Source: Pseudomonadota bacterium (GTDB lineage: Bacteria; Pseudomonadota; Gammaproteobacteria; Burkholderiales; Burkholderiaceae_C). From it: a DNA stretch of 53,226 nucleotides. The notes beneath the pieces are model-generated. The model did no database searches. It saw only the letters and a list, made by a program, of their open reading frames with translations, and had not been told where the DNA came from. Positions 7,239 to 50,023 of the stretch are shown here, in pieces; position 1 is the stretch's first letter; each line of letters starts with the position of its first letter. Both the position numbers and the translations under genes were made by a program. Location: assembly GCA_031119395.1 (NCBI GenBank), contig JAVHYA010000003.1:105726-158951 (forward strand). The letters are read 5' to 3'.

Positions 7239-8393
7239 ATGAATTTCAAGCGTTTTAGTGCTCCAGCGCCCGTCCTTCGTGCGGGGGCAGCTATGGTTTT
7301 GATAGCGGTCGCCGCCAGCATCGCGGCCTGCTCGGGCACGGCCAAGCCCAAGCCGGCCGAACTGCCGCCCAACAACGCCTTGATGGGCGTTCGCCAGGCC
7401 TGGACGGCCAAGCTGCCCTCGGTGGCCTTCCCGCTGCAGATGGCGGTCAACGGCGACACGGTGACCGTGGCCGCGGCCGACGGCACGGTGGTGGTGATCG
7501 ACGCCCGCACCGGCGCCGAGCAGTGGCGTGCCAGCGCGGGGGCGCCCCTGATCGCCGGCGTCGGCAGCGACGGTGCGATGGCCGCGGTGGTCACGGCCAA
7601 CAACGAACTCGTCGCCCTGCAGGGCGGCAAGGTGCTCTGGAAGGAGCGCCTGCCTGCCGAAACCTACACCCCGCCGCTGGTGGCCGGCCGCCGCGTGTTC
7701 GCGCAGACCGCCGACCGCAGCACCACCGCCTTCGACGGCCAGAGCGGCCGCCGCCTCTGGACCCAGACCCGCGCCGCCGGCGATGCGCTCGTGCTGCGCA
7801 AGCCCGGCGTGATGTTCCCGATCGGCGACACCCTCGTCGCCGGCGTGGGCGCACGCATGGTGGGCATGAACCCGAACAACGGCGTCTCGCGCTGGGAAGT
7901 CCCGATCGCCTCGCCGCGCGGGACCAACGACGTCGAGCGCCTGGTCGACCTGACCGGCACCGTGAGCCGCGTGGGCGAAACCGTCTGCGCGCGCGCCTAC
8001 TACGCGGCCGTCGGCTGCGTCGACACCACCCGCGGCACGCTGCTGTGGAACAAGCCCTCGGTCGGCGCCGAAGGCGTGGGCGGCGACGAGCGCGCGGTGT
8101 ACGGGACCGAATCGAACGGCAGCGTGGTCGCCTGGCGCCGCACCGACGGCAACGTGATGTGGACGTCCGACCGGCTGCGCCTGCGCACGCTCACCGCACC
8201 GCTGGCCGTGGGCCGCACGCTGGTGATCGGCGAAGACACGGGCACCGTGCACTTCCTGTCGCGCGAGGATGGCTCGCCGCTCAACCGCCTGGCACCCGAT
8301 GGCTCGGCCATCGCCGCTGCGCCGGTGCTGGCCGCCAACACCGTGGTGGTCGTGACGCGCAACGGCGGCGTCTTCGGCTACCGCGCCGAGTAG
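7239..8393 (+). CDS. bamB: Outer membrane protein assembly factor BamB (lipoprotein)
   Basis: 384 residues. A lipoprotein signal peptide ends in the lipobox IAAC (Cys31). An eight-bladed PQQ/beta-propeller follows, with repeated blade motifs such as GTVVVIDARTGAEQW and GSVVAWRRTDGNVMW. It is a subunit of the BAM complex at the outer membrane. The oddity is that residues 2-23 of the signal peptide are encoded by a copy of the dispersed 60-bp repeat (7241-7306) seen elsewhere in intergenic DNA. A second in-frame ATG is at 7293, but starting there would leave a signal peptide without a basic n-region, so I keep 7239. A strong terminator follows. Confidence 0.95.
   Translation: MNFKRFSAPAPVLRAGAAMVLIAVAASIAACSGTAKPKPAELPPNNALMGVRQAWTAKLPSVAFPLQMAVNGDTVTVAAADGTVVVIDARTGAEQWRASAGAPLIAGVGSDGAMAAVVTANNELVALQGGKVLWKERLPAETYTPPLVAGRRVFAQTADRSTTAFDGQSGRRLWTQTRAAGDALVLRKPGVMFPIGDTLVAGVGARMVGMNPNNGVSRWEVPIASPRGTNDVERLVDLTGTVSRVGETVCARAYYAAVGCVDTTRGTLLWNKPSVGAEGVGGDERAVYGTESNGSVVAWRRTDGNVMWTSDRLRLRTLTAPLAVGRTLVIGEDTGTVHFLSREDGSPLNRLAPDGSAIAAAPVLAANTVVVVTRNGGVFGYRAE
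7241..7306 (-). repeat. Dispersed 60-bp repeat, copy A (inside bamB signal-peptide codons)
   Basis: Read on the minus strand it begins GCTATcaaaaccATAGC and continues TGCCCCCGCACG..GGACGGGCG..TGGAGC, matching the copies at 32530 and 38623 along the whole length. It occupies codons 2-23 of bamB, so a normally non-coding element has been taken into a signal peptide. Confidence 0.85.
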
Positions 8394-8454
8394 GGCTGCC
8401 CCCCGGCGGCGAGACCGCCGTCATTGCCGCGCGGCTGCCCCGCCGACTCCCAAC

Positions 8455-8482
8455 GACGCCGCACCCCTGCGGCGTCTTTTTT
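8455..8482 (+). terminator. Rho-independent terminator after bamB
   Basis: A GACGCCGC stem (8455-8462), ACCCCT loop and GCGGCGTC (8469-8476) are followed by six T. The 8-bp perfect G+C stem and T-tract end the ispG/hisS/bamB transcript before der. Confidence 0.88.
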
Positions 8483-8524
8483 CTTCCGCCCGCGCCCTGT
8501 GCGGGCGCGGGATACAGTTAGCCC

Positions 8525-9877
8525 ATGAAACCCGTCATCGCCCTGGTCGGCCGCCCGAACGTGGGCAAGTCGACCCTGTTCAACCGCCTCACGCAGACGC
8601 GTGACGCCATCGTGGCCGACTTTGCCGGCCTGACGCGCGACCGCCACTACGGCACGGGCCACCTCGGGCCGCGGGAATTCATCGTCATCGACACCGGGGG
8701 CTTCGAGCCCGACGCCGGCAGCGGCATCTACCGCGAAATGGCCAAGCAGACGCGCCAGGCCGTGGCCGAGGCCGACGTCGTGGTCTTCGTGCTCGACGGC
8801 CGGCAGGGCCTGTCGGCGCAGGACCACGACATCGCCAACGAACTGCGGCGCCTGGGCAAGCCCTGCCTGCTGGCCGTCAACAAGGCCGAGGGCATGAAGG
8901 ACAGCAGCCGCCTGGCCGAGTTCTACGAGCTGGGCTTCGGCGACGTGCATCCGATTTCCTCCGCCCATGGCCAGGGCGTGCGTGCGCTGATCGAGCTGGC
9001 GCTCGATACCCTGCCGCCGCCGCCCGACGAGCCGGAGGAGGGCGAGGAGGACGACCCGGCCAGCCGGCCGATCCGCCTGGCGGTGGCCGGCCGCCCGAAC
9101 GTGGGCAAGTCCACCTTGATCAACACCTGGCTGGGCGAGGAGCGGCTGGTCGCCTTCGACCTCCCGGGCACCACGCGCGATGCCATCAGCGTGCCGATGG
9201 AGCGCAACGGGCAGCGTTTCGAACTCATCGACACCGCCGGGCTGCGCCGCAAGGGGCGGGTGTTCGAGGCGATCGAGAAGTTCTCGGTCGTCAAGACGCT
9301 GCAGGCCATCGAGTCGGCCCATGTCGTGCTGCTGCTCATCGATGCCACCGAGGGCGTGACCGACCAGGACGCCCACATCGCCGGCTTCGTCCTCGAGGCC
9401 GGGCGGGCGGTGGTGGTGGCGATCAACAAGTGGGACGCCGTCGACAGCTACCAGCGCGAGCAGATCCAGCGCCAGCTCGAGAACCGGCTGCCCTTCCTGA
9501 AGTTCGCGGCCGTGCATTTCATCTCGGCCAAGAAGCGCCTGGGCCTCGGGCCCGTCTGGCAGTCGATCGTGCAGGCGCACCGTTCAGCCATGCGCAAGAT
9601 GTCCACGCCCGTGCTCACCCGGCTGCTGCTCGAATCGGTGCAGTTCCAGGCGCCCAAGAAGAGCGGCATGTTCCGGCCCAAGCTGCGCTATGCCCACCAG
9701 GGCGGCATGAACCCGCCCGTGATCATCGTGCATGGCAATTCGCTGGAGCACGTGAGCGAGAGCTACCGGCGTTTCCTGGAGGCACGCTTTCGCAAGGAGT
9801 TCGACCTCGTTGGCACGCCGCTTCGCATCGAATTCAAGACCTCGCACAACCCTTACGCCGACAAGCCGGGGTCTTGA
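8525..9877 (+). CDS. der: Ribosome biogenesis GTPase Der (EngA)
   Basis: 450 residues with two tandem GTPase domains, unique to this family, and a C-terminal KH-like domain. P-loops GRPNVGKST occur at residues 9-17 and again near 189; the two share a run of identical codons. G3 (DTGGF; DTAGLR) and G4 (NKAE; NKWD) motifs are present in each domain. Between the G domains is an acidic linker ([11 protein letters not shown]). Der acts in 50S subunit maturation. It has its own transcription unit after the bamB terminator. Confidence 0.97.
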
Positions 9878-9963
9878 AACGGGCTCCGGAGTGCCCACCT
9901 GGAGCGGTCGGTCTGGCCGCCTGTCGGTCGCAACCGTTAATTTTTGAAGGCCATTCGGAAACC

Positions 9964-9993
9964 TTGCTGCAGCGCGGAAACGCTGTGTTAAGG
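9964..9993 (+). promoter_or_regulatory. Candidate sigma-70 promoter for hfq
   Basis: TTGCTG at 9964-9969 is followed after 16-17 bp by TGTTAAG around 9986-9992. The -10 match is only fair. It lies in the 156-bp der-hfq gap, about 40 bp before the hfq ribosome-binding site. Confidence 0.3.
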
Positions 9994-10033
9994 TGCCCGG
10001 TCCAACAACTTCTTTTTGAACACGGAGAATATC

Positions 10034-10279
10034 GTGAGCAACAAAGGGCAACTCCTACAAGACCCGTTTCTGAACACGCTGCGTCGCGAGCACGTGCCGG
10101 TCTCGATCTATCTGGTCAACGGCATCAAGCTGCAGGGTCAGATCGAATCGTTCGACCAATACGTCGTTCTGCTTCGCAACACAGTGACGCAAATGGTCTA
10201 CAAGCACGCCATCTCCACCATCGTGCCGGGCCGCGCGGTCAACTTCTCGGTCACCGAGAACGACGACGCAGGCGGCTGA
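10034..10279 (+). CDS. hfq: RNA chaperone Hfq
   Basis: 81 residues, Sm-like fold. Sm1 region: [20 protein letters not shown]...[19 protein letters not shown]. Sm2: [12 protein letters not shown]. It forms hexamers that pair small RNAs with mRNAs. I chose GTG 10034, giving [14 protein letters not shown] as in the family, with GGAGA at 10024-10028. An in-frame TTG 18 bp upstream gives a non-conserved extension and no ribosome-binding site. The C-terminal tail is very short. A UUCG-loop terminator separates it from hflX, although the hfq-hflX-hflK-hflC order is conserved. Confidence 0.96.
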
Positions 10280-10292
10280 ACGGCGCAGGGCA

Positions 10293-10319
10293 GGGCGGCT
10301 TCGGCCGCCCCGCCTTTTT
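10293..10319 (+). terminator. Rho-independent terminator between hfq and hflX
   Basis: GGGCGGC (10293-10299), loop TTCG, GCCGCCC (10304-10310), then a short CGCC and five T. The UUCG tetraloop makes a very stable hairpin. Because hflX follows within 20 bp, it may be a partial terminator or attenuator. Confidence 0.75.
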
Positions 10320-10335
10320 CTGAAGTCCGTTCCGA

Positions 10336-11514
10336 TTGTCTGAACCCATTCCCCGCCAGGACGGCGCCGTCATCCTCGTCGGCGTCGATTTCGGCCATCC
10401 CCATTTCGACAGCGAACTCGAGGAACTCGGGCTGCTCGCGCAGACCGCCGGCCTCGAGCCCGTCGCCCGCCTGATCTGCAAGCGCAAGGCGCCCGATGCG
10501 GCGCTCTTCGTCGGCAGCGGCAAGGCCGACGAGATTCGCGAACTCGCCGAGCTGCATCGCGCCAGCGAGGTGATCTTCGACCAGGCCATCTCGCCGGCCC
10601 AGCAGCGCAACCTCGAGCGCGCGCTCGGCGTGGCCGTCTACGACCGCACCTTCCTGATCCTCGAGATCTTCGCCCAGCGCGCGCGCAGCCACGAGGGCAA
10701 GCTGCAGGTCGAGCTGGCCCGCCTGCAGTACCTCAGCACGCGCCTTGTCCGTCGCTGGTCCCACCTGGAGCGCCAGACCGGCGGCGCCGGCGTGCGCGGC
10801 GGTCCGGGCGAGAAGCAGATCGAACTCGACCGCCGGATGATCGACGCGTCGATCAAGCGCACGCGCGAGCGCCTGGCCAAGGTCCAGAAGCAGCGCGGCA
10901 CCCAGCGCCGCCAGCGCGAGCGCCGGGACACCTTCAACATCTCGCTGGTGGGCTACACCAACGCCGGCAAGTCCTCGCTGTTCAATGCGCTGGTCAAGGC
11001 CCGTGCCTATGCGGCCGACCAGCTCTTCGCCACGCTGGACACCACCACGCGCCATCTGTACCTGGGCGACGTGGGGCGGCGCGTGTCGATCTCCGACACG
11101 GTGGGATTCATCCGCGAATTGCCGCACGGCCTGGTGGACGCCTTCAAGGCCACGCTGCAGGAGGCCGTCGACGCCGACCTGCTGCTGCACGTGGTCGATG
11201 CCTCCAACCCGCATCACCCGGAGCAGATCGCCGAGGTGCAGCAGGTGCTGCAGGACATCGGTGCCGGCGAGGTGCCGCAATTGCTGGTCTTCAACAAGCT
11301 CGACGCGCTGGATGCGGACCACCGGCCGCACGTGCTGGCCGACGAAATGGAGATCGACGGCCAGCGTGTGCCGCGCATCTTCCTCAGTGCCCATTCGGGC
11401 GAGGGCTTGCCGGCCCTGCGCGAGGTGCTGGCGCAGCGCGCCGCCCAGGAGGCCACGCAGGACGACGGCATGCCCCCAGCGGAGCCGGCCGAATTGCAGG
11501 GCGCCACGCACTGA
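10336..11514 (+). CDS. hflX: Ribosome-associated GTPase HflX
   Basis: 392 residues. An N-terminal HflX domain (about 15-200) has the Gly-rich linker GGAGVRGGPGEKQIELDRR. The GTPase domain has G1 GYTNAGKSSLFN, G3 DTVGF and G4 NKLD. HflX splits stalled or heat-damaged ribosomes. The apparent start is TTG 10336, giving MSEPIPRQDGAV with no clear Shine-Dalgarno. No better start exists before the conserved region, so the start is provisional. The gene sits directly behind the hfq terminator and 38 bp ahead of hflK. Confidence 0.93.
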   Translation: MSEPIPRQDGAVILVGVDFGHPHFDSELEELGLLAQTAGLEPVARLICKRKAPDAALFVGSGKADEIRELAELHRASEVIFDQAISPAQQRNLERALGVAVYDRTFLILEIFAQRARSHEGKLQVELARLQYLSTRLVRRWSHLERQTGGAGVRGGPGEKQIELDRRMIDASIKRTRERLAKVQKQRGTQRRQRERRDTFNISLVGYTNAGKSSLFNALVKARAYAADQLFATLDTTTRHLYLGDVGRRVSISDTVGFIRELPHGLVDAFKATLQEAVDADLLLHVVDASNPHHPEQIAEVQQVLQDIGAGEVPQLLVFNKLDALDADHRPHVLADEMEIDGQRVPRIFLSAHSGEGLPALREVLAQRAAQEATQDDGMPPAEPAELQGATH

Positions 11515-11552
11515 TTGGGCACAATAGCTGCCTTCTATAAGAAGCGAAACGA

Positions 11553-13007
11553 ATGACGTCCATGCCAGAGAGCGCGCCCCGACCCGGATTGCTTCCGGCG
11601 CAGCCCCCGAGGAAGACAGAACGACGGGGAGCGGTGCGGCGTTTTCTCGCCAGCCGGTTTCCGGGCATGTTCAACCTGAACGACGGCCGCTGGGGCCGCA
11701 GCGACGAGCCGTCCTCCTCCGACGGCGAGCGCCCGGCACCGAGCCGACCGCCCGAGAACGATCCGCCTCCCCCGTCGGGCAACAACGGCAACCGGCCGCG
11801 CGGCCAGGGCCCCAACCAGGGGCCGCCCGACCTCGACGAGCTGTGGCGCGACTTCAACCGCAAGCTGGGCGGCATGTTCGGTGGCGGACGTGGCGGCGGC
11901 CCGCGCCCCGGCGGCAACGGCGGGGGCGGCAACAATTACAAGCCCGACATGAAGAACGCCGGCTTCGGCATCGGCCTCATCGCCGCCGTGGCGGTGCTGA
12001 TCTGGCTGGGCACCGGCTTCTTCATCGTCAACGAAGGCCAGCAGGCCGTGATCACCCAGTTCGGCCGCTACAAGGAAACCGTGGGCGCCGGCTTCAACTG
12101 GCGCCTGCCGTATCCGATCCAGCGCCATGAGCTGGTGGTGGTGACGCAGATCCGCTCCACCGACGTCGGCCGCGACAGCATCGTGCGCTCCACCGGCCTG
12201 CGCGAGTCGGCCATGCTCACCGAGGACGAGAACATCGTCGAGATCAAGTTCGCCGTGCAGTACCGCCTGAACGACGCGCGTGCCTGGCTCTTCGAGAGCA
12301 AGAGCCCGAGCGAGACGGTGGTCCAGGTGGCCGAGACCGCCGTGCGCGAGGTCGTCGGCAAGATGAGGATGGACGCCGCGCTGGCGGAGGAGCGCGACCA
12401 GATCGCGCCGCGCGTGCGCCAGCTCATGCAGAGCATCCTCGACCGCTACAAGGTCGGTGTCGAGGTCGTCGGCATCAACCTGCAGCAAGGCGGCGTGCGT
12501 CCGCCCGAGCAGGTGCAGGCGGCCTTCGACGACGTGCTCAAGGCCGGCCAGGAGCGCGAGCGGGCGAAGAACGAGGCGCAGGCCTACGCCAACGACGTGA
12601 TCCCGCGCGCCGTGGGTACCGCCTCGCGGCTGAAGGAAGAGTCCGAGGCCTACAAGGCCCGCGTGGTCGCACAGGCGCAGGGTGATGCGCAGCGCTTCGG
12701 GCAGGTCCTGACGGAGTACCAGAAAGCGCCCCAGGTGACGCGCGACCGCATGTACACCGACGCCATGCAACAGATCTACAACAACACCACCAAGGTGCTG
12801 GTGGAGACGAAGCAGGGCTCCAACCTCCTGTACCTGCCGCTCGACAAGCTGATGCAGTCCTCCGGTGCCGCAGCCGCGGCGCCCGCCGACGGCGCGCCCC
12901 CGAGCGTGGCCGGTACGGCCCCGCCGCAGGCATCGTCCATTCCCGTGGCGCCGAGCGATTCGCGCGCCCGCGACAGCGGCCGTTCGCGCGACCGTGACGC
13001 ACGCTGA
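11553..13007 (+). CDS. hflK: FtsH protease activity modulator HflK
   Basis: 484 residues. A long Pro/Gly/Asn-rich N-terminus (1-130) is followed by one membrane segment (about 134-152, GIGLIAAVAVLIWLGTGFF), then the SPFH/band-7 domain and a coiled-coil stretch. HflK and HflC form a large cage around FtsH in the inner membrane. Alternative starts at 11562 and 11667 (MFNLNDGRWGR) are possible; the conserved part begins near the latter. The Ala/Pro/Ser-rich C-terminus is typical. hflC starts 17 bp downstream. Confidence 0.95.
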   Translation: MTSMPESAPRPGLLPAQPPRKTERRGAVRRFLASRFPGMFNLNDGRWGRSDEPSSSDGERPAPSRPPENDPPPPSGNNGNRPRGQGPNQGPPDLDELWRDFNRKLGGMFGGGRGGGPRPGGNGGGGNNYKPDMKNAGFGIGLIAAVAVLIWLGTGFFIVNEGQQAVITQFGRYKETVGAGFNWRLPYPIQRHELVVVTQIRSTDVGRDSIVRSTGLRESAMLTEDENIVEIKFAVQYRLNDARAWLFESKSPSETVVQVAETAVREVVGKMRMDAALAEERDQIAPRVRQLMQSILDRYKVGVEVVGINLQQGGVRPPEQVQAAFDDVLKAGQERERAKNEAQAYANDVIPRAVGTASRLKEESEAYKARVVAQAQGDAQRFGQVLTEYQKAPQVTRDRMYTDAMQQIYNNTTKVLVETKQGSNLLYLPLDKLMQSSGAAAAAPADGAPPSVAGTAPPQASSIPVAPSDSRARDSGRSRDRDAR

Positions 13008-13024
13008 GCCGGGAGACCCACACC

Positions 13025-13933: not shown

Positions 13934-13955
13934 GTTGCCGCGCTGAGCTTCGTTC

Positions 13956-14144
13956 GTGAGCAGCGATGCGTTCTGGAGCGCCGTGGCGCTCGTCCTGGTG
14001 ATCGAGGGCATCCTGCCCTTCGTGTCACCCGGCGGGTGGCGGCGCGGCTTCAGCCAGCTCATGCAGCTGCGCGACGGCCAGTTGCGCTTCTTCGGGCTGT
14101 GCAGCATCGTCGCCGGGCTGGTCCTGCTCTGGCTCGCCAGCTGA
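13956..14144 (+). CDS. Small inner-membrane protein, DUF2065 family (YjeT-like)
   Basis: 62 residues with two predicted membrane helices (about 5-23 and 44-61) separated by the short basic loop GGWRRGFSQLMQLRDGQ. This is the DUF2065/YjeT family, which in E. coli also lies between hflC and purA. Function is unknown. The start is GTG 13956 (MSSDAFWSAVALVLVIEG), with GAGCTTCG upstream as a weak ribosome-binding site. hisZ follows after 77 bp, with a TAGAAT hexamer at 14189-14194 that could be its -10 box. Confidence 0.85.
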   Translation: MSSDAFWSAVALVLVIEGILPFVSPGGWRRGFSQLMQLRDGQLRFFGLCSIVAGLVLLWLAS

Positions 14145-14221
14145 TCCGCGCCCGGGCCGTCTGAAGGGCCGCGGTCACCCGCGCCCGTTAGAATCCGTTT
14201 TTAACCACGGCCCCGTTTCCC

Positions 14222-15373: not shown

Positions 15374-16729
<1,356 letters not shown>

Positions 16730-16732
16730 GTG

Positions 16733-16854: not shown

Positions 16855-16861
16855 AGTCCCT

Positions 16862-16920
16862 GAGCCAAATCGGCCGCCAACGCCCGCCCCACCTGCGCCA
16901 CCAGCTATCAAATCAGGAGC
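16862..16920 (-). repeat. Dispersed 60-bp repeat, copy B (carries the ribosome-binding site of the next gene)
   Basis: On the minus strand it reads GCTCCtgatttgATAGC, then TGGTGGCGCAG..GGGGCGGGCGTTGGCGGCCGATTTGG, matching the other copies. On the plus strand its last bases, CAGGAGC (16914-16920), lie 9-14 bp before the ATG at 16930 and form that gene's Shine-Dalgarno. Confidence 0.85.
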
Positions 16921-16929
16921 AAATGCCCC

Positions 16930-17454
16930 ATGTTGACCGAAGACGGCAAGCACCTTTACGTCAGTTATGACGAGTACCACAACCTGATCGAGAAGCTCGC
17001 GATCAAGGTGCACCAGTCGGGCTGGGAGTTCGACAACATCCTGTGCCTGGCACGCGGCGGCATGCGGCCGGGCGACGTGCTCTCGCGCATCTTCGACAAG
17101 CCGCTGGCCATCATGTCGACCAGCTCCTACCGCGCGGAGGCCGGCACGGTGCAGGGGCACCTGGACATCGCCCACTACATCACCACGCCCAAGGGCGAGA
17201 TCGCGGGCAAGGTGCTGCTGGTCGACGACCTGGCGGACTCGGGCCACACGCTCAACGCCGTGGTGGAGCTGCTCAAGACCAAGTACGCGCCCATCACCGA
17301 GCTGCGCAGCGCGGTGCTGTGGACCAAGGGGCTGTCGAATTTCACGCCGGACTACTCGGTGGAATTCCTGCCCACCAACCCCTGGATCCACCAGCCCTTC
17401 GAGGGCTACGACAACATGACGCCGACCAAGCTGCTGGCGAAGTGGTCGGTCTGA
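16930..17454 (+). CDS. Phosphoribosyltransferase (hypoxanthine/xanthine-type)
   Basis: 174 residues, type I phosphoribosyltransferase. The PRPP loop is VLLVDDLADSGHTL (about 96-109), and the N-terminal CLARGGMRPGDVLSR segment is typical of xanthine/hypoxanthine salvage enzymes. It probably converts a purine base to its nucleotide, which fits its place after purA, though substrate cannot be told from sequence. ATG 16930 is preceded by CAGGAGC, supplied by dispersed repeat copy B. A terminator follows 27 bp after the stop. Confidence 0.85.
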   Translation: MLTEDGKHLYVSYDEYHNLIEKLAIKVHQSGWEFDNILCLARGGMRPGDVLSRIFDKPLAIMSTSSYRAEAGTVQGHLDIAHYITTPKGEIAGKVLLVDDLADSGHTLNAVVELLKTKYAPITELRSAVLWTKGLSNFTPDYSVEFLPTNPWIHQPFEGYDNMTPTKLLAKWSV

Positions 17455-20791: not shown

Positions 20792-21556
20792 ATGTCTTCC
20801 AGCCCTGCTTCCGCATCGCCGATCGTCAGCGTCGAGCATGTGTTCAAGTCCGTCACCGATTCGGCGGGCACGCTGGACATTCTGCGCGACATCGATTTCA
20901 CCCTCGGCGCGCGGGAGACCGCCGCCATCGTCGGCGCCTCGGGCTCGGGCAAGAGCACGCTGCTGTCCATCGTGGCAGGGCTGGACGTGCCCTCCCGCGG
21001 CACCGTGCGCATCGCGGGCGACGACCTCTTCGCCATCGACGAGGACGAACGCGCTGCGCTGCGTGCCAGACAGATCGGTTTCGTGTTCCAGAGTTTCCAG
21101 CTGCTGGGCAACCTCACTGCGCTGGAGAACGTGATGCTGCCGCTGGAGCTGGCCGACCGCCGCGATGCGCGCAAGGCCGCCACCGAGATGCTCGGCCGCG
21201 TCGGCCTGGGCCAGCGCCTGTCGCACTACCCCAAGGTGCTGTCGGGCGGCGAGCAGCAGCGCGTGGCGCTGGCGCGCGCCTTCGTCGTGCAGCCGCAGCT
21301 GCTGCTGGCCGACGAGCCCACCGGCAGCCTGGACTTCGCCACCGGCGAGCAGGTGATGCGGCTGATGTTCGACCTCAACCGCGAGCTGGGGACCACGCTC
21401 GTGCTGGTCACGCACGACCGCGGCATCGCGGCCCAGTGCGAGCGCCGCATCACCATCGAGGCGGGCCGCGTCGCCAGCAACGAGAGTTCCAAGCCGAATT
21501 GGCCTGAAACGCCCGTGGATGGGGCGCAGGATGCTATCAATTCCGTAGCGCCTTGA
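20792..21556 (+). CDS. ABC transporter ATP-binding protein (YbbA/LolD-like)
   Basis: 254 residues. Walker A is GASGSGKST (about 48-56), the Q-loop is in VFQSFQLLGNLTALENVMLP, the signature is LSGGEQQRVALARA, Walker B is LLLADEPTGSLD, and the H-loop is VLVTHD. It belongs to the MacB/LolD/YbbA family that energises FtsX-like permeases. No permease gene follows, which is odd: E. coli ybbA is followed by ybbP. I chose ATG 20792. The last 22 codons (from SKPNWPE) are encoded by dispersed repeat copy C, so the original C-terminus may have been replaced. Confidence 0.9.
   Translation: MSSSPASASPIVSVEHVFKSVTDSAGTLDILRDIDFTLGARETAAIVGASGSGKSTLLSIVAGLDVPSRGTVRIAGDDLFAIDEDERAALRARQIGFVFQSFQLLGNLTALENVMLPLELADRRDARKAATEMLGRVGLGQRLSHYPKVLSGGEQQRVALARAFVVQPQLLLADEPTGSLDFATGEQVMRLMFDLNRELGTTLVLVTHDRGIAAQCERRITIEAGRVASNESSKPNWPETPVDGAQDAINSVAP
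21487..21549 (-). repeat. Dispersed 60-bp repeat, copy C (3' end of the ABC ATPase gene)
   Basis: On the minus strand it reads GCTACggaattgATAGC, then ATCCTGCGCCCCATCCACGGGCG..TTTCAGGCC, matching the family. It encodes the final residues of the ABC ATPase up to 7 bp before the end of the TGA stop. Confidence 0.85.
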
Positions 21557-31714: not shown

Positions 31715-32542
31715 ATGACGGACTCACCCGCAGTCCCATCCATGCGTACCTGGACCCCCGAACCCGCCAACGACGGCGCCGAGGCGCTGCTGGCGCGGTG
31801 CATGCCCCAGGTGGTGCCCGCGCTGGGCGAGCCGGGCTTCGGGGCCTGCCTGCTCGACGCCATGGCACAGGCGCTGCCGGTGGGGTCCTTCTCGGTCTAC
31901 CGCACCGGCCCGCGCCCGGCCATCTTCCTGAGCGGCGCCCGCGGGGTGCCGGACACCACGCGCGACTGCTGGCGCGCCTACCTCTCCGGCCCCATCCGCC
32001 ACGACCGCACGCTGCGCGATGCCGGCGCGCCCCCGCTGCGCGTGTGCCACATCACGGCCGGCGAGGTGCCGCCCGAGCACCGCGCGAAGGTGTACGAGGC
32101 GCATGGGGTGCTCGAGCGCGTGTCGGTGGTCGAGGACGAGGTGGCGGACGAGGGCGCGCTCTTCGCGGTCAACTTCTACCGCCACACGCACCAGCGCGCA
32201 TTGAGCGACGCACAGATCGCCGACTTCGGCGCGGCCGGCCGGCTGCTGATGGCGCTGGCGCGCAAACACGTGGCGCTGGTGCGCGCGGATGACGGCGCGA
32301 ACCTGCGCGAGCGGCTGCTGGCGCGATGCCCCGCGCTCACCCTGCGCGAGCAGGAGGTCTGCCTGCGCCTGCTGCGCGGCATGACGCAGGAGGGCATCGC
32401 CGCCGACCTCGGCGTGGCGCTGCCCACGGTGAAGACCTACCGCAACCGCGCCTTCGGCCGGCTGGGCATCCACTTCCGCAGCGAACTGTTCGCGCTGATG
32501 CTGCCCGGTGGCCGCGGCCCCGGTGATTTGCTATCGAATTGA
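31715..32542 (+). CDS. LuxR-family transcriptional regulator
   Basis: 275 residues. A C-terminal GerE/LuxR helix-turn-helix lies at about 205-265 (LTLREQEVCLRLLRGMTQEGIAADLGVALPTVKTYRNRAFGRLGI). The N-terminal 200 residues contain no recognisable receiver or autoinducer domain. Starts at 31715 and 31742 are both possible and neither has a good ribosome-binding site. The last codons and the TGA stop (LLSN-stop) lie inside dispersed repeat copy D. It is divergent from DUF3237-bug, its likely target. Confidence 0.85.
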   Translation: MTDSPAVPSMRTWTPEPANDGAEALLARCMPQVVPALGEPGFGACLLDAMAQALPVGSFSVYRTGPRPAIFLSGARGVPDTTRDCWRAYLSGPIRHDRTLRDAGAPPLRVCHITAGEVPPEHRAKVYEAHGVLERVSVVEDEVADEGALFAVNFYRHTHQRALSDAQIADFGAAGRLLMALARKHVALVRADDGANLRERLLARCPALTLREQEVCLRLLRGMTQEGIAADLGVALPTVKTYRNRAFGRLGIHFRSELFALMLPGGRGPGDLLSN

Positions 32543-32591
32543 TAGCTGCCCGCGCCCGCTGGGCGGGCGTTGCAGGCACTTTAGGCTCGAA
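32530..32591 (+). repeat. Dispersed 60-bp repeat, copy D (supplies the LuxR gene's stop codon)
   Basis: GCTATcgaattgATAGC, then TGCCCGCGCCCGCTGGGCGGGCG, then TTGCAGGCACTTTAGGC: the cleanest copy, with an outer GCTAT/ATAGC hairpin and an inner GCCCGC/GCGGGC hairpin. It lies between convergent genes. Confidence 0.9.
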
Positions 32592-32609
32592 TCGCCGATG
32601 TCAGGTGCT

Positions 32610-38604: not shown

Positions 38605-38622
38605 AGGGTGCTCGGCTGGCTT

Positions 38623-38685
38623 GCTATGAAAAAGATAGCTGCCGGCGCAGGCGGGACGGGCGTTGCCGGGCGATTTGGGCCTGAA
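38623..38685 (+). repeat. Dispersed 60-bp repeat, copy E (after the patatin gene)
   Basis: GCTATgaaaaagATAGC, then TGCCGGCGCAGGCGGGACGG, then GCGTTGCCGGGCGATTTGGGCCTGAA. It starts 18 bp after the patatin stop in the same orientation as copy D. The rest of the 199-bp gap to the next gene holds nothing I can name. Confidence 0.88.
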
Positions 38686-38803
38686 GGCCGCCATCGGCGC
38701 GGCGGGGCGCCGGATCGAGGGTTCAGTTTCCCCTAAGGCGGGGCGGTGAAGCTGGGGGCTCGCTGTCACACGCCCTGCATCGCTCACTCCCACCCTGCTG
38801 CCC

Positions 38804-40493: not shown

Positions 40494-40589
40494 GCGCGAA
40501 CACGTGCGGCCTCCACCTACAAGGGGAGGCGGCGCGCGCCGAGCGCGGCGATGGCGAAATCGTCGTTCTGGAGTGATAAGGTGGCGGCC

Positions 40590-41186: not shown

Positions 41187-41204
41187 GGCGGGCCGACTCG
41201 GCGG

Positions 41205-42134: not shown

Positions 42135-42141
42135 GTTGCCA

Positions 42142-42164
42142 TTGTCAATTTAAATTGTTGACAA
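42142..42164. promoter_or_regulatory. Palindromic MarR-type operator upstream of the MarR-GNAT gene
   Basis: Arms TTGTCAA (42142-42148) and TTGACAA (42158-42164) enclose an A+T core. The inner CAATTTAAATTG is itself a perfect 12-bp palindrome. This A+T island stands out in G+C-rich DNA directly before the start codon at 42134. Confidence 0.6.
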
Positions 42165-42334
42165 AAGCAAGTGAAAGCCGATTCCGGTCCGTCCGGGCGG
42201 TGCAGGCGGCCGTGGGCACCTGGCCTTGGCAACGGTGGGGCCATCGGCCCCTTCGGTAAAATGCGCGATCCCCACGCGAAGCAGACAACCGGGCCCCGCC
42301 GCCACCCGGACCGCGTCTGCCATTCCCTTCCACG

Positions 42335-44701
<2,367 letters not shown>

Positions 44702-44810
44702 GGTCCTCAGCCGCCGGATCGGCCTGCAGCGCCCGTGCAGCGGGTGCGTGCGGCGATGGATTCGACCGCGTGCCGCGCACGCCCGCCCGCGCGCCCGCTA
44801 CGATCGCGCC

Positions 44811-45713
44811 ATGACCGCGTCGCGCATTCACGCCTCCCGCCGTGCCTGGCTGGCGGCCTTCGGATGGGGGCTGGCGCTGCTCGGCGGCCACGCCGGCGCA
44901 CAGGCCTCGGGCGGCCAGGCCCTGCTCGACAGCTTCGCGCAGGTCCATGCGCGCATGGCCAAGAGCGGCCTGGGCCGGCCGATGGTGCTCGAATCGGCCG
45001 AGACGCCGAACGGCCTGAAGGGCGACGTCTACGCCGTCGTCGACCACCGGCTCGACGACCTGCGCGGCGCGCTGGAGAAGCCCGAGCAGTGGTGCGAGTT
45101 GCTCACCCTGCACATCAACAACCGCCGCTGCCGGGTGGGGCAGGCCGCGGGCGGCGGCGCCACGCTCACGCTGAGCGTGGTGCGGCGCTACGACAAGCCG
45201 GTGGAGGAGGCCTTCGAGCTGCCCTTCAGCTACCGCGTGGCGTCGTCCACGCCCGACTTCCTCGCGGTCGACATGCGCACCGCCGAGGGCCCCTTCGGCA
45301 CCAGCAACTACCGTGTGCTGCTGGAGGCGGTGCGGCTCGACGGCGAACGCACCTTTCTCCACTTCGGCTACGGCTACGAGCACAACATGATGGTCAAGCT
45401 CGCGACCCAGGCCTACCTCGCGACCTTCGGCGCCCACAAGGTGGGCTTCACCGTCACGGGCCGTGACGAGAACGGCCAGCCGGTGCACATCACCGGCCTG
45501 CGCGGCCTGGTGGAGCGCAACGCGATGCGCTACTTCCTCACGCTCGATGCCTACCTGGTGGGCCTGGACGCGCCCCCGGCCGAGCGCCGCGAGCGCCGGC
45601 AGCGCCTGTGGTTCGCATCCACCGAGCGCTACCCGCGCCAGCTCAAGGAAGTCGACCTGGCGACCTACCTGGCGCAAAAGCGCGCCGACCGAGAACGCGA
45701 CGGCGGACGTTGA
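44811..45713 (+). CDS. Exported conserved hypothetical protein
   Basis: 300 residues. The signal peptide covers about 1-31 (RRAWLAAFGWGLALLGGHAGA). No membrane helix follows, so it is probably periplasmic. There are two Cys close together (WCELLTLHINNRRCRVG, about 99-112) that could pair. A long conserved-looking stretch reads FLHFGYGYEHNMMVKLATQAYLATFG. I do not recognise a domain. The C-terminus is highly charged (ERRERRQR...KRADRERDGGR). It is convergent with the binding-protein gene, with repeat copy F between them. Confidence 0.75.
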   Translation: MTASRIHASRRAWLAAFGWGLALLGGHAGAQASGGQALLDSFAQVHARMAKSGLGRPMVLESAETPNGLKGDVYAVVDHRLDDLRGALEKPEQWCELLTLHINNRRCRVGQAAGGGATLTLSVVRRYDKPVEEAFELPFSYRVASSTPDFLAVDMRTAEGPFGTSNYRVLLEAVRLDGERTFLHFGYGYEHNMMVKLATQAYLATFGAHKVGFTVTGRDENGQPVHITGLRGLVERNAMRYFLTLDAYLVGLDAPPAERRERRQRLWFASTERYPRQLKEVDLATYLAQKRADRERDGGR

Positions 45714-45732
45714 GCCGGCGCCGGGGACTCAA

Positions 45733-45789
45733 GAGAAAAGTGGCTGAAACGCCCGTCCGCCGGGCGCCGTCAGCTATGAATGTCGTAGC
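45733..45789 (-). repeat. Dispersed 60-bp repeat, copy F
   Basis: On the minus strand it reads GCTACgacattcATAGC, then TGACGGCGCCCGGCGGACGGGCG, then TTTCAGCCACTTTT. It lies between convergent genes, with the GCTAC end 15 bp from the stop of the binding-protein gene at 45804. Confidence 0.85.
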
Positions 45790-45803
45790 AACCCGGTGCT
45801 GGC

Positions 45804-47051
45804 TCAGCGCTTGACCAGCGGGCATTTCGACTCGGCCAGCGGCGCGAAGGCCTTGTCGCCCGGCACGGTCTGCAGCACCTTGTAGAGGTCCCAGGTGCTC
45901 TTCGATTCGGCGGGCGTCTTCACCTGCACCAGCAGCATGTCGTGGACCATCTTGCCGTCGGCGCGCAGCTGGCCGTTGCGGATCACGGCGTCGTCGAACT
46001 TCATCGTGCGCAGCTTCGCGACCACCGCGTCCACCTCGTCGGTGCCCGTGGCCTCGATGGCCTTCAGGTAGTTGAGCACGGCGGAGTACACGGCCGCCTG
46101 CATCATGGTCGGCATCTTCCTGTGCACGGCGAAGAAGCGCTGGCCGAAGGCGCGGGCGCGCTCGTCCATGTCCCAGTAGAAGCCGTTGGTCAGCACCATG
46201 CCCTGCGCGTTCGCGAGGCCCATGGACTGCACCTCGGTGATGAGCGAGAGCAGCGGCGTGAAGGTCTGCTTGCCGCCGCGCACCATGCCGAACTGCGCCG
46301 CCTGCTTGACGGTGTTGAGCGTGTCCAGCCCCGAGTTGGCCATGGCGACCACCTGTGCGCCGGAGTTCTGCGCGGTGAGCAGGTAGGAGGACTGGTCCGA
46401 GGAGTTGATCGGATGCCGCGAACTGCCCAGCACCTTGCCGCCCGACTTGTGGATGATGGCCGTGGCGTCCTTCTCCAGCGCGTTGCCGAAGGCGTAGTCG
46501 GCGGTGATGAAGTACCAGCTCGTCAGGCCCCGGGCGATCAGCGCGGGCACGGTGGTGTTCGACAGCGCATAGGTGTCGTACATCCAGTGCACGCTGCGGG
46601 CGGTGCACTGGTCGTCGCTGATGGTGGAGGCACCGGCGCCGGTGACCATGGCGAAGCGCTTCTTCTCGTCGGCGATGCGCGTCACGGCCAGCGCCACGTT
46701 GGAGTAGGTGAGGTCGGTGATCATGTCGACCTGCTGCTGGTCGAACCACTCGCGGGCCTTGGTGGCGCCGATGTCGGTCTTGCCCTGCGAATCGGCGGAG
46801 ACCAGCTCGATGGGCATGCCCAGCACCCTGCGGTCCTTGCTGAACTCGTCGATGGCCAGTTGCGCCGCCACGATCGAGCCCTTGCCCGCGTTCTCGCTCG
46901 ACACGCCCGACAGGTCGGTGAGCACGCCGATCTTGACCACGTTGTCGGAAATGCGCGGCGGCGACGCAGGCTGGGCCAGCGCGGGCGATGAGAGGGCGAG
47001 CAGGGCGGCGGACGCGAGCGCGTGCCGCAGCCGCAGGGGGATGCACGGCAT
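45804..47051 (-). CDS. ABC transporter substrate-binding protein (branched-chain amino acid/urea type)
   Basis: 415 residues. A signal peptide (about 1-26, ALLALSSPALAQP) is followed by a periplasmic-binding-protein type 1 fold: VKIGVLTDLSGVSSENAGKGSIVAAQLAIDEF. LivJ-like proteins of this subgroup bind amino acids, amides or aromatic acids. No permease or ATPase gene is near, so it is an orphan. It is divergent from the hemerythrin-like gene, with a tandem response-regulator-type box in the 229-bp gap. Confidence 0.9.
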   Translation of the reverse strand: MPCIPLRLRHALASAALLALSSPALAQPASPPRISDNVVKIGVLTDLSGVSSENAGKGSIVAAQLAIDEFSKDRRVLGMPIELVSADSQGKTDIGATKAREWFDQQQVDMITDLTYSNVALAVTRIADEKKRFAMVTGAGASTISDDQCTARSVHWMYDTYALSNTTVPALIARGLTSWYFITADYAFGNALEKDATAIIHKSGGKVLGSSRHPINSSDQSSYLLTAQNSGAQVVAMANSGLDTLNTVKQAAQFGMVRGGKQTFTPLLSLITEVQSMGLANAQGMVLTNGFYWDMDERARAFGQRFFAVHRKMPTMMQAAVYSAVLNYLKAIEATGTDEVDAVVAKLRTMKFDDAVIRNGQLRADGKMVHDMLLVQVKTPAESKSTWDLYKVLQTVPGDKAFAPLAESKCPLVKR

Positions 47052-47143
47052 GGGAAATGTCTCCTTCGTTGTCGTTCAAGAAAAGCGCGCGGCCAGTCTA
47101 CGGGAGCACGCGCGCGGCCGCTGTCGCCAGCGGGCAGGACGCG

Positions 47144-47182
47144 CTTAAGAAGTTCTTAGGAAGCCGTTAAGCAATTCTTAGC
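47144..47182. promoter_or_regulatory. Tandem PmrA/QseB-like boxes (four TTARG half-sites at 11-bp period)
   Basis: Hexamers CTTAAG, CTTAGG, GTTAAG and CTTAGC start at 47144, 47155, 47166 and 47177, each separated by exactly 5 bp. The YTTAAG-N5-YTTAAG pattern is that of the PmrA/QseB box of OmpR-family response regulators. TAGACT at 47205-47210 would place the last half-site next to the -35 region of the hemerythrin-like gene. Confidence 0.55.
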
Positions 47183-47280
47183 GGCGCGCGGACGGGGGCG
47201 TTCCTAGACTGCCTTCCAGCAGCCCACGAGGCATGTCGCCGCGGCGAAGCTGCCCTCCAGACCCGAACGGAAACCACACC

Positions 47281-48024
47281 ATGCACATCGACAAGAACGA
47301 ACTGCAGGCCGTCGCCTGCACCTCCGGCGCCGCCACCGCGCGCTTCGACATGTACGCCGGCATCCACAAGGCACTGCGCGCGCTGATGGCCGACACCCTG
47401 CTGACCCTCGGCCGCCTGGACCCGGACGACAGCTTCGAGCTGGCCGACGGCACGCAGCGCCTGCTGGCGCTGCTGGACTTCTGCCGCAGCCACCTGGGCC
47501 ACGAGAATGCGTTCATCCACGCGGCCATGGAAGCCCGCGCGCCCGGCGCCAGCGAGGCCATCGCGCACGAGCATGCGCAGCACGAGGCGGCCATCGCGCG
47601 CCTGGCCGCCCAGGCCACCGGCCTGCTGCACGCGCCCGCCGAAGCGCGCGCCACCGGCGTGCTGGCGCTCTACCGCGAGACCTCGCTCTTCGTCGCGCAC
47701 AACTTCGAGCACATGCACGTCGAGGAGACGGCGCACAACGCGGTGCTCTGGGCCCGCTACACCGATGCCGAACTGGTCGCCCTCCACGATGCGCTGGTGG
47801 CCTCGATCCCGCCGCAGGAGATGATGTTCACGCTGCGCTGGCTGGTGCCCTTCATGAACCCGGCCGAGCGGGCCGCGATGCTGCGCGAGATGCAGGCCCA
47901 TGCACCGGCACCGGCCTTCGCCGCCGCGCTGGACGTGGTGCGCCCGCACCTGAGCGAGCGCGAGTGGGCCAAGCTCGCGGGCGCCCTGGGCCTGCCGCCG
48001 GCGCCAGGCCTGGTCGCTGCCTGA
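47281..48024 (+). CDS. Hemerythrin-like (HHE-type) protein
   Basis: 247 residues. The His/Glu pattern fits a four-helix hemerythrin-like metal site: His29 in YAGIHKALRALM, His74/Glu75/His80 in HLGHENAFIH, His96/98/101 in AHEHAQHEAAI, and His140/144/146 with Glu148/149 in VAHNFEHMHVEE. The C-terminal 90 residues are outside the four-helix part and helical. It may bind oxygen or NO, or act as a di-iron repair protein. It is probably driven by the tandem box upstream. It is convergent with the PNPOx-GAF-wHTH gene, 19 bp apart. Confidence 0.8.
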   Translation: MHIDKNELQAVACTSGAATARFDMYAGIHKALRALMADTLLTLGRLDPDDSFELADGTQRLLALLDFCRSHLGHENAFIHAAMEARAPGASEAIAHEHAQHEAAIARLAAQATGLLHAPAEARATGVLALYRETSLFVAHNFEHMHVEETAHNAVLWARYTDAELVALHDALVASIPPQEMMFTLRWLVPFMNPAERAAMLREMQAHAPAPAFAAALDVVRPHLSEREWAKLAGALGLPPAPGLVAA

Positions 48025-48043
48025 GGCGGATGCGGCGCGCCGG

Positions 48044-49384
48044 TCAGCCGGCTTCGTCGAGTCGCACGGGCCGCGCCACGCGCAGCGCGAAGCGGCCGCG
48101 GCCGGTCTTCTCGATGCGCAGCGCCGGGCACTGCTCGGCCAGCCGGCGCTGCAGGAGCAGCAGGCGCGCCTCGAGGTTGTCGGCCACGTCGGGCAGGCCC
48201 AGCGACCCGTCCAGGCGCAGCTCGCGGTTGCTGAACTCGGTGCGGCCCTGGCCGGTGTACTCCCGCAGCAGCTTGCACAGGATCGCGCCGGCCACGCCCT
48301 TGATGAGGTACTGGCCGTCGACGAACACGCTGTCGTTGACGGCATAGCGGCGCACCTGCAGCGGCGTTCCGCCGACCGGTGCGCGCACCGGCGGCGGCGC
48401 AGGAGGCTCTGCCGCTGGCTCGGCCGCGGCCTGCAGCAGGTCCAGCGCGGTGCCCAGGTGGCCGGCGATGGCGGCCAGCGCATCCTCGTCCTCGAAGCCG
48501 AAGGCCATGTCGCATTCGCTCTCGGCGAAGAGCACGCCCAGCAGGCGCCCGGCCGAGACGATGGGCAGGGCGATCTGGCTGCGCGGCTGCGCCAGGCCGG
48601 GAAAGGGGATTTCCACCTCCAGCAGTTCGGGCGCATCGGCCTGGACGCTGGCGCGCAAGGCGTGGCTGTAGCTGGCCGCGTTGGTCATGTGGCCGATGCG
48701 CACCGCGGTGCGCTCGCGCGCGGCGACGCCGATCACGCCGTGGCCGACCGGGATCTCCGAGCCCACGCCCGAGGTGGCATAGCCGGTGCTGGCCAGCGTG
48801 TAGAGGCGATCGGTCGCCGGGTCGTGCATCAGCACCATGGCATGGCCGATGCCCAATGCGTCGGTGAGCACCGCCAGCGCGCCTTGCAGCAGTTCGTCGG
48901 TGGCGGTGCAGCGCGCGAAGCCGTCGGCGGCGCGGCGCACGGCCGCCAGCAGCCCGGTGCGTGGCGGCGGCGCGGGCAGCTGCTCGCCCTCGACCGCCTC
49001 GACCGACTCCACGCGGTAGACGTCGGCGCCCCGCAGGCGGAACACCGCGGCCATGCCCGAGTGCGACGCGATGCCGGCCAGCTGTGCCTTCATGCCCTCG
49101 AACAGCGGCCCCTCGGTTTCGGTGCGCAGGTAGCGCACGTGCAGCCGGTGGAAGGCGGCGGTGCGCGGGTCCATCAGCAGCAGCGTGGCGAAGGGGTTGG
49201 CCAGGATGTTCTGGCGCGTCTTGTTGAAGAACTGGAAGGACAGCGCGACATGTCCGCCGTCGACGTGGAACACCTGCGAGATGTATGCCACGTTGGGCGT
49301 TCCGTCGGCCGCGCAGGTGGCCATGATGGCCGGGATGGCGCCCTCGAAGCAGGGGCGCAGGGCAGAGATGGCGTCGCTGCTCAC
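48044..49384 (-). CDS. PNPOx-like / GAF / winged-helix three-domain sensor protein
   Basis: 446 residues from GTG 49384. Residues 8-135 form a pyridoxamine-5'-phosphate-oxidase-like split barrel (FMN-type motif FFNKTRQNILANPFATLLL). About 150-318 is a GAF domain (ALGIGHAMVLMHD...IPVGHGVIGVAARERTAVRIG...IALPIVSAGRLLGVLFAE). After an Ala/Pro linker (319-340), about 343-436 looks like an OmpR-type winged helix (EFSNRELRLDGSLGLPDVADNLEARLLLLQRRL..LRIEKTGRGRFAL). This would be a one-component flavin or heme-responsive regulator. It begins 9 bp after the stop of the second PNPOx gene, in one operon. Confidence 0.8.
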   Translation of the reverse strand: MSSDAISALRPCFEGAIPAIMATCAADGTPNVAYISQVFHVDGGHVALSFQFFNKTRQNILANPFATLLLMDPRTAAFHRLHVRYLRTETEGPLFEGMKAQLAGIASHSGMAAVFRLRGADVYRVESVEAVEGEQLPAPPPRTGLLAAVRRAADGFARCTATDELLQGALAVLTDALGIGHAMVLMHDPATDRLYTLASTGYATSGVGSEIPVGHGVIGVAARERTAVRIGHMTNAASYSHALRASVQADAPELLEVEIPFPGLAQPRSQIALPIVSAGRLLGVLFAESECDMAFGFEDEDALAAIAGHLGTALDLLQAAAEPAAEPPAPPPVRAPVGGTPLQVRRYAVNDSVFVDGQYLIKGVAGAILCKLLREYTGQGRTEFSNRELRLDGSLGLPDVADNLEARLLLLQRRLAEQCPALRIEKTGRGRFALRVARPVRLDEAG

Positions 49385-49395
49385 GGGGGCGGCGC

Positions 49396-49893
49396 TCAGG
49401 CGGGGTGGGGCAGCGCGGTGCCGGCGCGTGGGCCGGGCGTCTGGTCGTAGGCCTCGGCGGGCGTGAAGCCGATGGCGACGAGGTCGTCGAGCCGGTGCGC
49501 GAACATGGCATGCACGAAGGGCGGGCCGAAGCCGACGGCGCCGATCTCCTCTTCCATCGACGCGAGGTAGCGCCGCAGCGCGGTCCCGTCCGCGTCGTCC
49601 GCCGGCCGCAGCGAGGCCCGGCGGCCCTTGAGCTGGACGGTGCGGTGGCTCAGGGGCTGGCTGAAGACCACCGCCACCTCGCCGGTGGCCGCGATGTCGA
49701 GCAGCAGCTGGCGCGACTGGCTGCGCGACACGAAGACGGTGACCTGCCGGCCATCGGCCGAGATGGTCGTCCCCACGGCGCGCATGAGGCTGGGCCGCAG
49801 CCCCGCGTCGCGCGAGGCGACGATCGCCGAGACCCCCTTGTCGATCAGGGCGATGTGGTCGGGCGAGAGCAGGGCGGCGTCGGGAGACGGCAT
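49396..49893 (-). CDS. PNPOx-like split-barrel flavin-binding protein
   Basis: 165 residues from ATG 49893 (a TTG at 49914 is in frame). The fold is suggested by DHIALIDKGVSAIVASRDAGLRPSLMRAVGTTI, VTVFVSRSQSRQLLLDIAATGEVAVVFSQPLSHRTVQLKG and ending FAHRLDDLVAIGFTPAEAYDQTPGPRAG. Related proteins bind FMN, F420 or heme. It is upstream of, and surely cotranscribed with, the PNPOx-GAF-wHTH gene. The upstream 132-bp gap holds repeat copy G and the end of the LysR gene. Confidence 0.8.
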   Translation of the reverse strand: MPSPDAALLSPDHIALIDKGVSAIVASRDAGLRPSLMRAVGTTISADGRQVTVFVSRSQSRQLLLDIAATGEVAVVFSQPLSHRTVQLKGRRASLRPADDADGTALRRYLASMEEEIGAVGFGPPFVHAMFAHRLDDLVAIGFTPAEAYDQTPGPRAGTALPHPA

Positions 49894-49961
49894 GGCGCGG
49901 GTGGGGCGGTGCAACCGGAGCGCGGCGGATTGTCAATGAAAGTCACAGCGCCGTCGAATCC

Positions 49962-50023
49962 TTCAAGCCGGGAAGGCCGCCAGCGCCCGTGGGATGGGCG
50001 CGAGGCGCTATCAAAAACGGAGC
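49962..50023 (-). repeat. Dispersed 60-bp repeat, copy G
   Basis: On the minus strand it reads GCTCCgtttttgATAGC, then GCCTCGCGCCCATCCCACGG, then GCGCTGGCGGCCTTCCCGGC. Its GCTCC end lies 3 bp beyond the stop of the LysR gene at 50026. Confidence 0.85.

Follow-up and report, generated by a model that had tools for sequence, protein, structure and literature searches.

A dispersed repeat of Comamonadaceae chromosomes, conserved in place, as a putative DNA site at the ends of transcription units

Dispersed repeats of bacterial genomes are usually taken to be transposon debris or folded RNAs. We analysed a repeat of about 62 bp, opening with a GCTAT/ATAGC dyad, that occurs in eight copies (A to H) within a 53,226-nucleotide stretch of a Xenophilus-like genome (the home genome, G000; 5.14 Mb in 167 contigs); the whole stretch is called the window, and lettered copies are located in its coordinates. 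Between related species the letters that the copies share are conserved at the same chromosomal places, and the copies favour the ends of transcription units in either orientation. Going by these sequence patterns, we tentatively favour, at slightly less than an even chance, the view that this dispersed chromosomal repeat is old and has been retained at its places as a putative DNA site at transcription-unit ends, specific in sequence and independent of orientation, and would work in the manner of REP/BIME (repetitive extragenic palindromic/bacterial interspersed mosaic element) sites.

An initial annotation of the window had marked seven of these copies as a two-hairpin repeat. All seven are present and align without gaps, over 67 columns, with other copies of the same genome; an alignment of 34 such paralogues (A1, comprising the window seven and others, with locus L001 left out as a duplicate of copy E) has 11 invariant columns. 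The consensus in the home genus reads GCTATN7ATAGCTGCCnGCGCAGGCGGGACGGGCGCTGCAGGCCGATTTGGCTTG, and that of other genera GCTATN7ATAGCTGCTTGCGCTTGnTGGACGGGCGCTGGAGGCCnATTTGGCTT; the conserved core lacks symmetry. The exact motif GCTAYN7ATAGC is matched eight times in the window, counted by strand, at five places, against 0.03 expected from dinucleotide shuffles. In a covariance-model search (cmsearch) of the window the seven copies scored 45–75 bits (E 2e-12 to 6e-22), and an eighth, copy H, was found at 44705–44771 (minus strand; 41.8 bits, E 3e-11), so that the eight span E-values from 6e-22 to 3e-11; the seven belonged to the model's training set, and copy H lay outside it.

The evidence that carries the proposed site comes from orthologous copies. 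We divided the 62 columns of the unit into 28 core columns (one letter in at least 88% of the 34 A1 paralogues) and 34 others, and compared intergenic copies on two contigs with control segments placed in repeat-free gaps, dropping the three weakest of 44 matches and copies not exactly 67 bp long. Between the home genome and G008, differences were found at 10/251 core positions (4.0%), 37/306 other positions (12.1%) and 158/1655 control positions (9.5%); the corresponding values were 24/476 (5.0%), 105/567 (18.5%) and 494/4760 (10.4%) for G006, and 20/280 (7.1%), 75/338 (22.2%) and 162/1396 (11.6%) for G010. For X. aerolatus DSM 19424 (G001) they were 112/503 (22.3%), 170/601 (28.3%) and 588/4538 (13.0%). 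The control rates place G001 only slightly further away than G006, and they show that the core is no mutational cold spot. Copies were also chosen by means of a third genome, in 14 pairings of our own selection (6 or 7 copies each among the species that keep the core, G000, G006, G008 and G010): six of the nine comparisons among these species gave p <0.003 and one p = 0.004, and in the five pairings with G001 the core differed by 20.8–26.7%.

The decay in G001 is widespread, not total: its syntenic 200 kb hold five weak matches (best 38 bits) versus 17 in 151 kb of G006, and another 140 kb hold 11 (best 40.5 bits). Aligned orthologues keep minority variants, such as those of CCC or CACTTT type, so the copies have not been overwritten wholesale, as gene conversion would do. 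The same copies can be compared at the same places between species, and three relatives that keep the core and one that has largely lost it thus make up a natural experiment on selection. It is because the core is conserved in place that we read the repeat as a sequence-specific site.

Placement was counted with our own gene calls for the home genome and for G202, a complete genome of another genus (64 of its 70 matches, the six weakest being dropped). In the home genome, 50 of 64 copies lie mostly in gaps, although these calls make 91% of the DNA coding. The preference for gene 3' ends that the initial annotation had drawn from the window, where seven of the eight copies overlap a stop codon or lie within about 20 bp of one, extends to both genera. 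Relative to gap length, convergent gaps hold 11 home-genome copies (4.3 expected) and divergent gaps eight (17.0 expected; p = 4e-4), and the G202 figures are 17 (7.8 expected) and one (15.3 expected; p = 4e-6). Within tandem gaps of the home genome the median distance is 12 bp to the upstream stop versus 58 bp to the downstream start, with 23 of 31 copies nearer the stop (p = 0.003); the same tendency in G202 (21 of 35, p = 0.20) is not significant. Orientation is a different matter. The GCTAY end does face the upstream stop in copies D, E, F and G, as had been pointed out, but this is no general rule, and the orientation bias suggested by it disappears in tandem gaps at large: 13 copies run with the gene and 18 against it in the home genome, and 18 and 17 do so in G202 (13/20 and 19/17 under a slightly different assignment of copies).

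The two hairpins of the initial description stand in part. The GCTAT/ATAGC dyad hardly varies (in A1 the first stem is 92% paired), but the second stem is mostly broken in the home genus, where columns 29–39 pair in 8 of 34 copies and columns 30–38 in 10 of 34. Some variants at columns 29–30/38–39 across genera look compensatory, with U-G, U-A and C-G pairs at 29–39 and 30–38. Covariation is absent in the home genus (two cells with changes on both sides in A1 versus 6.3 in shuffles) and weak in alignment A4, which holds 74 hand-picked cross-genus copies (52 of 56 chosen from 120, plus 22 of the 70 G202 matches): 0.123 versus 0.111 in shuffles, a value matched by 25 of 500 shuffles, and versions of the stems slid along the alignment yield equal numbers of double changes. 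In the orthologue set, column 7 had changed in 6 of 36 comparisons and its would-be partner, column 15, in none. Two candidate folds were set aside: two folded RNA hairpins, for which RNAalifold returned seven pairs and zero compensatory change, and a three-stem arrangement that did no better than shuffles in A1 and barely better in A4. Rfam gave no match, either for the window at the gathering score or, with E allowed up to 1, for a 301-base stretch around copy E, and the copies read have no T run 3' of the stems. A sequence motif is the better description of the conserved letters, which may still form a DNA or RNA hairpin. In the second dyad, the loop (A4 columns 25–43; copies C and G, and the G010 orthologue of copy D) occurs in TGGA and TCCA types that look like inversions of one another, even between orthologues.

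There is little sign of present mobility. Comparing 96 distinct home-genome copies yields no identical pair; the closest two differ at 6/62 positions, and the median distance to the nearest neighbour is 12, although a few recent pairs may be missed because the 96 are perhaps one copy in seven. When copy E was run by BLAST against the whole genome, no second place exceeded 94% identity over 52 bases. Twenty copies on contig C37 were compared with G001, G006, G008 and G010 (the five weakest of 40 matches and the matches in G007 being dropped), and sequence of similar length stands at the orthologous place in 49 of 54 comparisons. Since the sampled copies are all different and most are kept at the same place in relatives, no current movement, nor any amplification since the Xenophilus species split, is seen. 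The ends of the repeat (GCTAT.. and ..TTGAA) are not inverted copies of each other, and the few empty sites seen are ragged, showing neither a clean junction nor a duplication; terminal inverted repeats and target-site duplications are the marks of a MITE (miniature inverted-repeat transposable element). The suggestion of a miniature transposon that currently prefers gene ends is not supported, given the lack of near-identical copies among the 96 sampled, their retention in place in most comparisons and their near absence from plasmids and phages.

The places themselves are not shared between genera above background (2/13 versus 4/40, p = 0.63), so the copies must once have multiplied, and the family probably did so in the past separately in different lineages. 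Deep positional conservation between genera had seemed possible on a first count of 8/29, which was inflated by repeat-centred loci; the figures just given come from other stretches. One possible deep shared position was observed at the start of a gene in Xenophilus (L040, 9060–9126) and in the genus of G202 (L284, 17104–17170), in the same orientation; we take this gene to be cysN.

A Y1 (IS200-like) transposase was considered as the driver of that multiplication and rejected: the gene occurs without repeats, and among further Y1 loci (the best-scoring 30 of the family search) a repeat was present at only one of 30. Within the genus, a single-copy Y1 gene scores over the cut-off in 14 of 15 genomes, including six of the seven repeat-free ones, and G002 has a weak Y1_Tnp match (14.8 bits). 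What had made the transposase tempting as a driver was a degenerate repeat found beside its gene in G000, G008 and G010. At L049 (1462–2300) the Y1_Tnp gene has an apparently constant neighbourhood in the genus loci read, followed by TGTCCCC..TCTGACCCC motifs and, in several repeat-bearing species, with a degenerate repeat by its stop codon; the gene that comes after it is presumably gltB. A signature of lagging-strand insertion likewise failed to generalise. In G202, with dnaA at 1.431 Mb and the terminus assumed to lie opposite, 96 of 146 copies follow a replichore strand bias (p = 2e-4; other choices give 93–98), and no such bias is present in G085 (76 of 150 among the matches listed).

An RNA element at transcript 3' ends, with hairpins that terminate transcription, stabilise the transcript or offer a cleavage site to RNase III or RNase E, would account for the preferred position at transcription-unit ends, for the foldable dyads and for the alternative pairs in the second stem across genera. 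Such an element should care about the transcript strand, which is why we disfavour it: over two genera the tandem-gap copies are 31 with and 35 against, despite the asymmetrical core, and the covariation signal falls below shuffles in A1 and exceeds them only slightly in A4, with no Rfam match and no T run after the stems. We regard this explanation as improbable, and the role in RNA processing, decay or directional termination that had been proposed for the repeat as unlikely, because orientation is unbiased and covariation unconvincing. More credit, if still less than would make it anything but unlikely, goes to a REP- or MITE-like non-autonomous mobile repeat that used to be mobilised, perhaps through the single-copy Y1/IS200-like transposase, and survives as an inert passenger where gene ends tolerate it. 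The copies are indeed dispersed, with no spacing below 1 kb among the 150 matches listed in G085 (pairs a few hundred bases apart occur elsewhere, for instance at 2310 and 2749 of L045); their multiplication appears to have been repeated; the Y1 gene is commoner in repeat-bearing genomes of the family than in others (66/80 versus 101/170, p = 3e-4); and both the strand bias of G202 and the rate at which whole copies go missing would suit a passenger. Set against this are the same gene's presence in repeat-free species and the lack of a Y1 match in 14 of 80 repeat-bearing genomes (all three of genus g21 among them), the unbiased replichores of G085, the absence of identical copies among the 96, the ragged empty sites and, above all, the core: a passenger would not be expected to keep it in place. 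Finally, a recognition sequence maintained by molecular drive, biasing DNA uptake or recombination and decaying once the recognising machinery is lost, would fit hundreds of orientation-independent copies, constraint in place and relaxation in one lineage. Known DNA uptake sequences (the DUS of Neisseria and the USS of Pasteurellaceae) have cores of 9–12 bp, far shorter than this repeat, and the concentration of copies in gaps of a genome that is 91% coding also speaks against molecular drive, which we consider very improbable.

The reading of the repeat as a DNA site has its own difficulties. With all columns taken together, the repeats on average change faster than the control gaps; the intergenic orthologues are modest in number (17 in G006, nine in G008, ten in G010 and 18 in G001), come from two contigs and are not independent; and choosing copies by score lowers the apparent core change, by up to about half on our reckoning. 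Two of the nine third-genome comparisons are not significant (G000 vs G008, p = 0.23; G008 vs G010, p = 0.10). Release of constraint is known from one lineage, that of G001, and this genome as a whole keeps 119 matches (E up to 1e-4), of which the strongest scores 77 bits. On the two contigs, whole copies are missing at 5 of 22 intergenic places in G006 (control 12/84) and at 2 of 20 in G001 (control 9/78), and in the home genome 14 of the 64 copies lie mostly within genes. Because G001 keeps strong copies and whole copies go missing as often as control segments, we hold the DNA-site reading less firmly, and give the inert passenger more weight, than we otherwise would.

If the repeat is a DNA site, a putative sequence-specific DNA-binding factor would recognise the GCTAT/ATAGC dyad together with the GC..CGGG block and would act at gene ends, where it might set a boundary, topological or transcriptional, by analogy with the REP/BIME sites of E. 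coli, which act through gyrase and IHF. Loss or weakening of this putative factor in the G001 lineage would have left most copies there to decay together. It is conceivable, if doubtful, that the hundreds of repeats make up a network of docking sites, spanning the genome, for a single putative DNA-binding factor, dispensable and specific to Comamonadaceae, that marks transcription-unit ends, so that in lineages that lose the factor the sites decay together; the strong copies kept by G001 make such a network less probable. Were it true, factor loss, beyond spread alone, would help explain why genomes of one genus carry at least 100 copies or none. The pattern also offers a route to the factor, whose gene should be kept where the core is kept and lost where the core decays. 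Hundreds of such sites per genome in many environmental Comamonadaceae would amount to a substantial and largely unannotated layer of chromosome organisation.

Covariance model R1 finds 64 copies in 453 kb of the home genome (400 kb outside the window account for 56), and a further 113 kb hold 12. The repeat is thus not confined to the seven copies first marked; such confinement had been named beforehand as an outcome that would tell against the initial reading. Extrapolation gives about 550–720 copies per genome, from densities that are perhaps too high because the home-genome stretches were taken on contigs known to bear matches; densities in G202 may be too high as well, its stretches having been placed over known matches. 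A genome-wide search of the home genome returned at least 150 matches, all of at least 63.7 bits among the matches listed. Of 15 genomes of the genus searched at E up to 1e-4, six have at least 119 matches, two have eight and two, and seven have none.

Occurrence across the Comamonadaceae, which the initial annotation had suggested and for which it had proposed a covariance-model search, is supported by matches in 80 of the 250 genomes sampled from the family and in 52 of its 141 sampled genera (at most 20 matches being scored per genome). All three sampled members are positive in genera g5, g16, g21, g40 and g55, and g1 and g15 are mixed. Among the matches listed are Acidovorax, Ottowia, Polaromonas, Rhodoferax, Variovorax, Diaphorobacter, Xenophilus and Rubrivivax, together with metagenome-assembled genomes (MAGs) labelled Comamonadaceae, Burkholderiales, Betaproteobacteria or Proteobacteria and one labelled Desulfuromonas. 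A contig of this last MAG (L145, PKUF01000062.1) bears an exact match to the repeat pattern and is possibly a binning contaminant. Among 72,556 plasmid records one matches the typed consensus and none a second query; none of 50,697 phage records matches; and the exact pattern occurs in three stretches among 2.9 million viral contigs.

Within the window, where positions and scores are from cmsearch and domain assignments from Pfam, two copies seem to serve neighbouring genes. Copy A (7242–7308, minus strand, 60.2 bits) lies 15 bp beyond the stop of a YfgM-like (TPR_21) gene, and by translation its complement strand supplies the codons for residues 2–23 of BamB (7239–8393), in the signal peptide and ahead of a lipobox-like IAAC; it diverges by 2–11% in four relatives. 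Copy B (16856–16922, minus strand, 66.1 bits), between purA and a phosphoribosyltransferase gene, is the one copy away from a stop codon, with 127 bp between it and the upstream stop and 8 bp between it and the next start codon. Its left arm reads GCTCC in place of GCTAT, which creates a Shine-Dalgarno-like AGGAG ten bases before the phosphoribosyltransferase ATG (16915–16930); at this place in G001 the repeat is seemingly mostly lost and the end bearing AGGAG is kept. Judged from sequence, copies A and B seem to be single copies co-opted by neighbour genes, as side effects and not as the general function of the repeat.

Copy C (21485–21551, minus strand, 56.7 bits) lies within the final 72 bases of an ABC-transporter ATPase gene and stops five bases short of the gene's end, and copy D (32528–32594, plus strand, 75.0 bits) includes the stop codon of a LuxR-type regulator gene in what is, by gene call, a convergent gap; the place of copy D is occupied in G001, G006, G008 and G010, in decayed form in G001. 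Copy E (38621–38687, plus strand, 75.4 bits), 17 bp beyond a patatin-like phospholipase gene, is missing at its place in alignments with G001, G006 and G007, and copy H, 4 bp beyond a radical-SAM gene, was not found at its place in G006 or G007. Copy F (45725–45791, minus strand, 58.8 bits), with convergent genes on either side, is absent in G006 and G007, and G001 has a decayed 70-bp stretch there. Copy G (49959–50025, minus strand, 45.3 bits) lies immediately 3' of the stop of a LysR-type regulator gene and has orthologues in G006 and G010. The neighbouring stretch 47146–49976, with a GAF/PNPOx-domain gene and a weakly hemerythrin-like one (below the Pfam cut-off), is found in the syntenic stretches of G006, G010 and G003 and has no match in that of G001.

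Two previously described elements emerged as candidates from a literature search based on partial texts. One is a MITE of Polaromonas sp. JS666, reportedly described by Mattes et al. in 2008. It is cited, as a short repeat in a Comamonadaceae genome, in the excerpted text of PMC10969869. The other, the beta-proteobacterial repeat element (BRE), is said in the excerpts of Hot et al. 2011 (PMC3110155) to occur in Bordetella and Comamonadaceae (29 copies in Polaromonas JS666 and 13 in Delftia), mostly between genes and with function unknown; full-length copies in Bordetella measure 75–91 bp and are often in tandem. The present repeat resembles BRE in being repeated in Comamonadaceae and mostly intergenic, as far as those descriptions go, and differs in its length (62–67 bp versus about 90 bp) and in being dispersed, in hundreds of copies, where BRE is in tandem at some loci. 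Term searches in the portions available of PMC3733652, PMC12306157 and PMC6006769 found no mention of Comamonadaceae genera. With DNA uptake sequences the repeat shares hundreds of orientation-independent copies, though its motif is much longer.

The closest likeness is to REP/BIME elements, orientation-independent sites at transcription-unit ends that are scarce in divergent gaps and are bound by gyrase, IHF or Pol I. The excerpts of PMC3733652 describe REP as a palindrome of 20–40 bp with a GTAG or CGTC tag on one of its ends, and those of PMC8049555 describe REPINs as a population around a master sequence. Our repeat is instead a 62-bp asymmetric unit, singly dispersed as a rule; neither GTAG nor CGTC tags an end of the consensus, whether of 34 or of 74 copies (CGTC occurs solely inside the bottom strand); no near-identical master copy appears among the 96 sampled of the estimated total, all of them distinct; and, unlike a REPIN/RAYT pair, the repeat and the Y1 gene do not go together within the genus. 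Since a terminal tag, master copies and dependence on a RAYT were looked for and not found, we do not file the repeat as a REP. In its distribution it nonetheless behaves as REP/BIME elements and REPINs do, with hundreds of intergenic, palindrome-containing chromosomal copies placed at transcription-unit ends in two genera, irrespective of orientation, poor in divergent gaps and accompanied in the same genomes by a single-copy Y1 gene.

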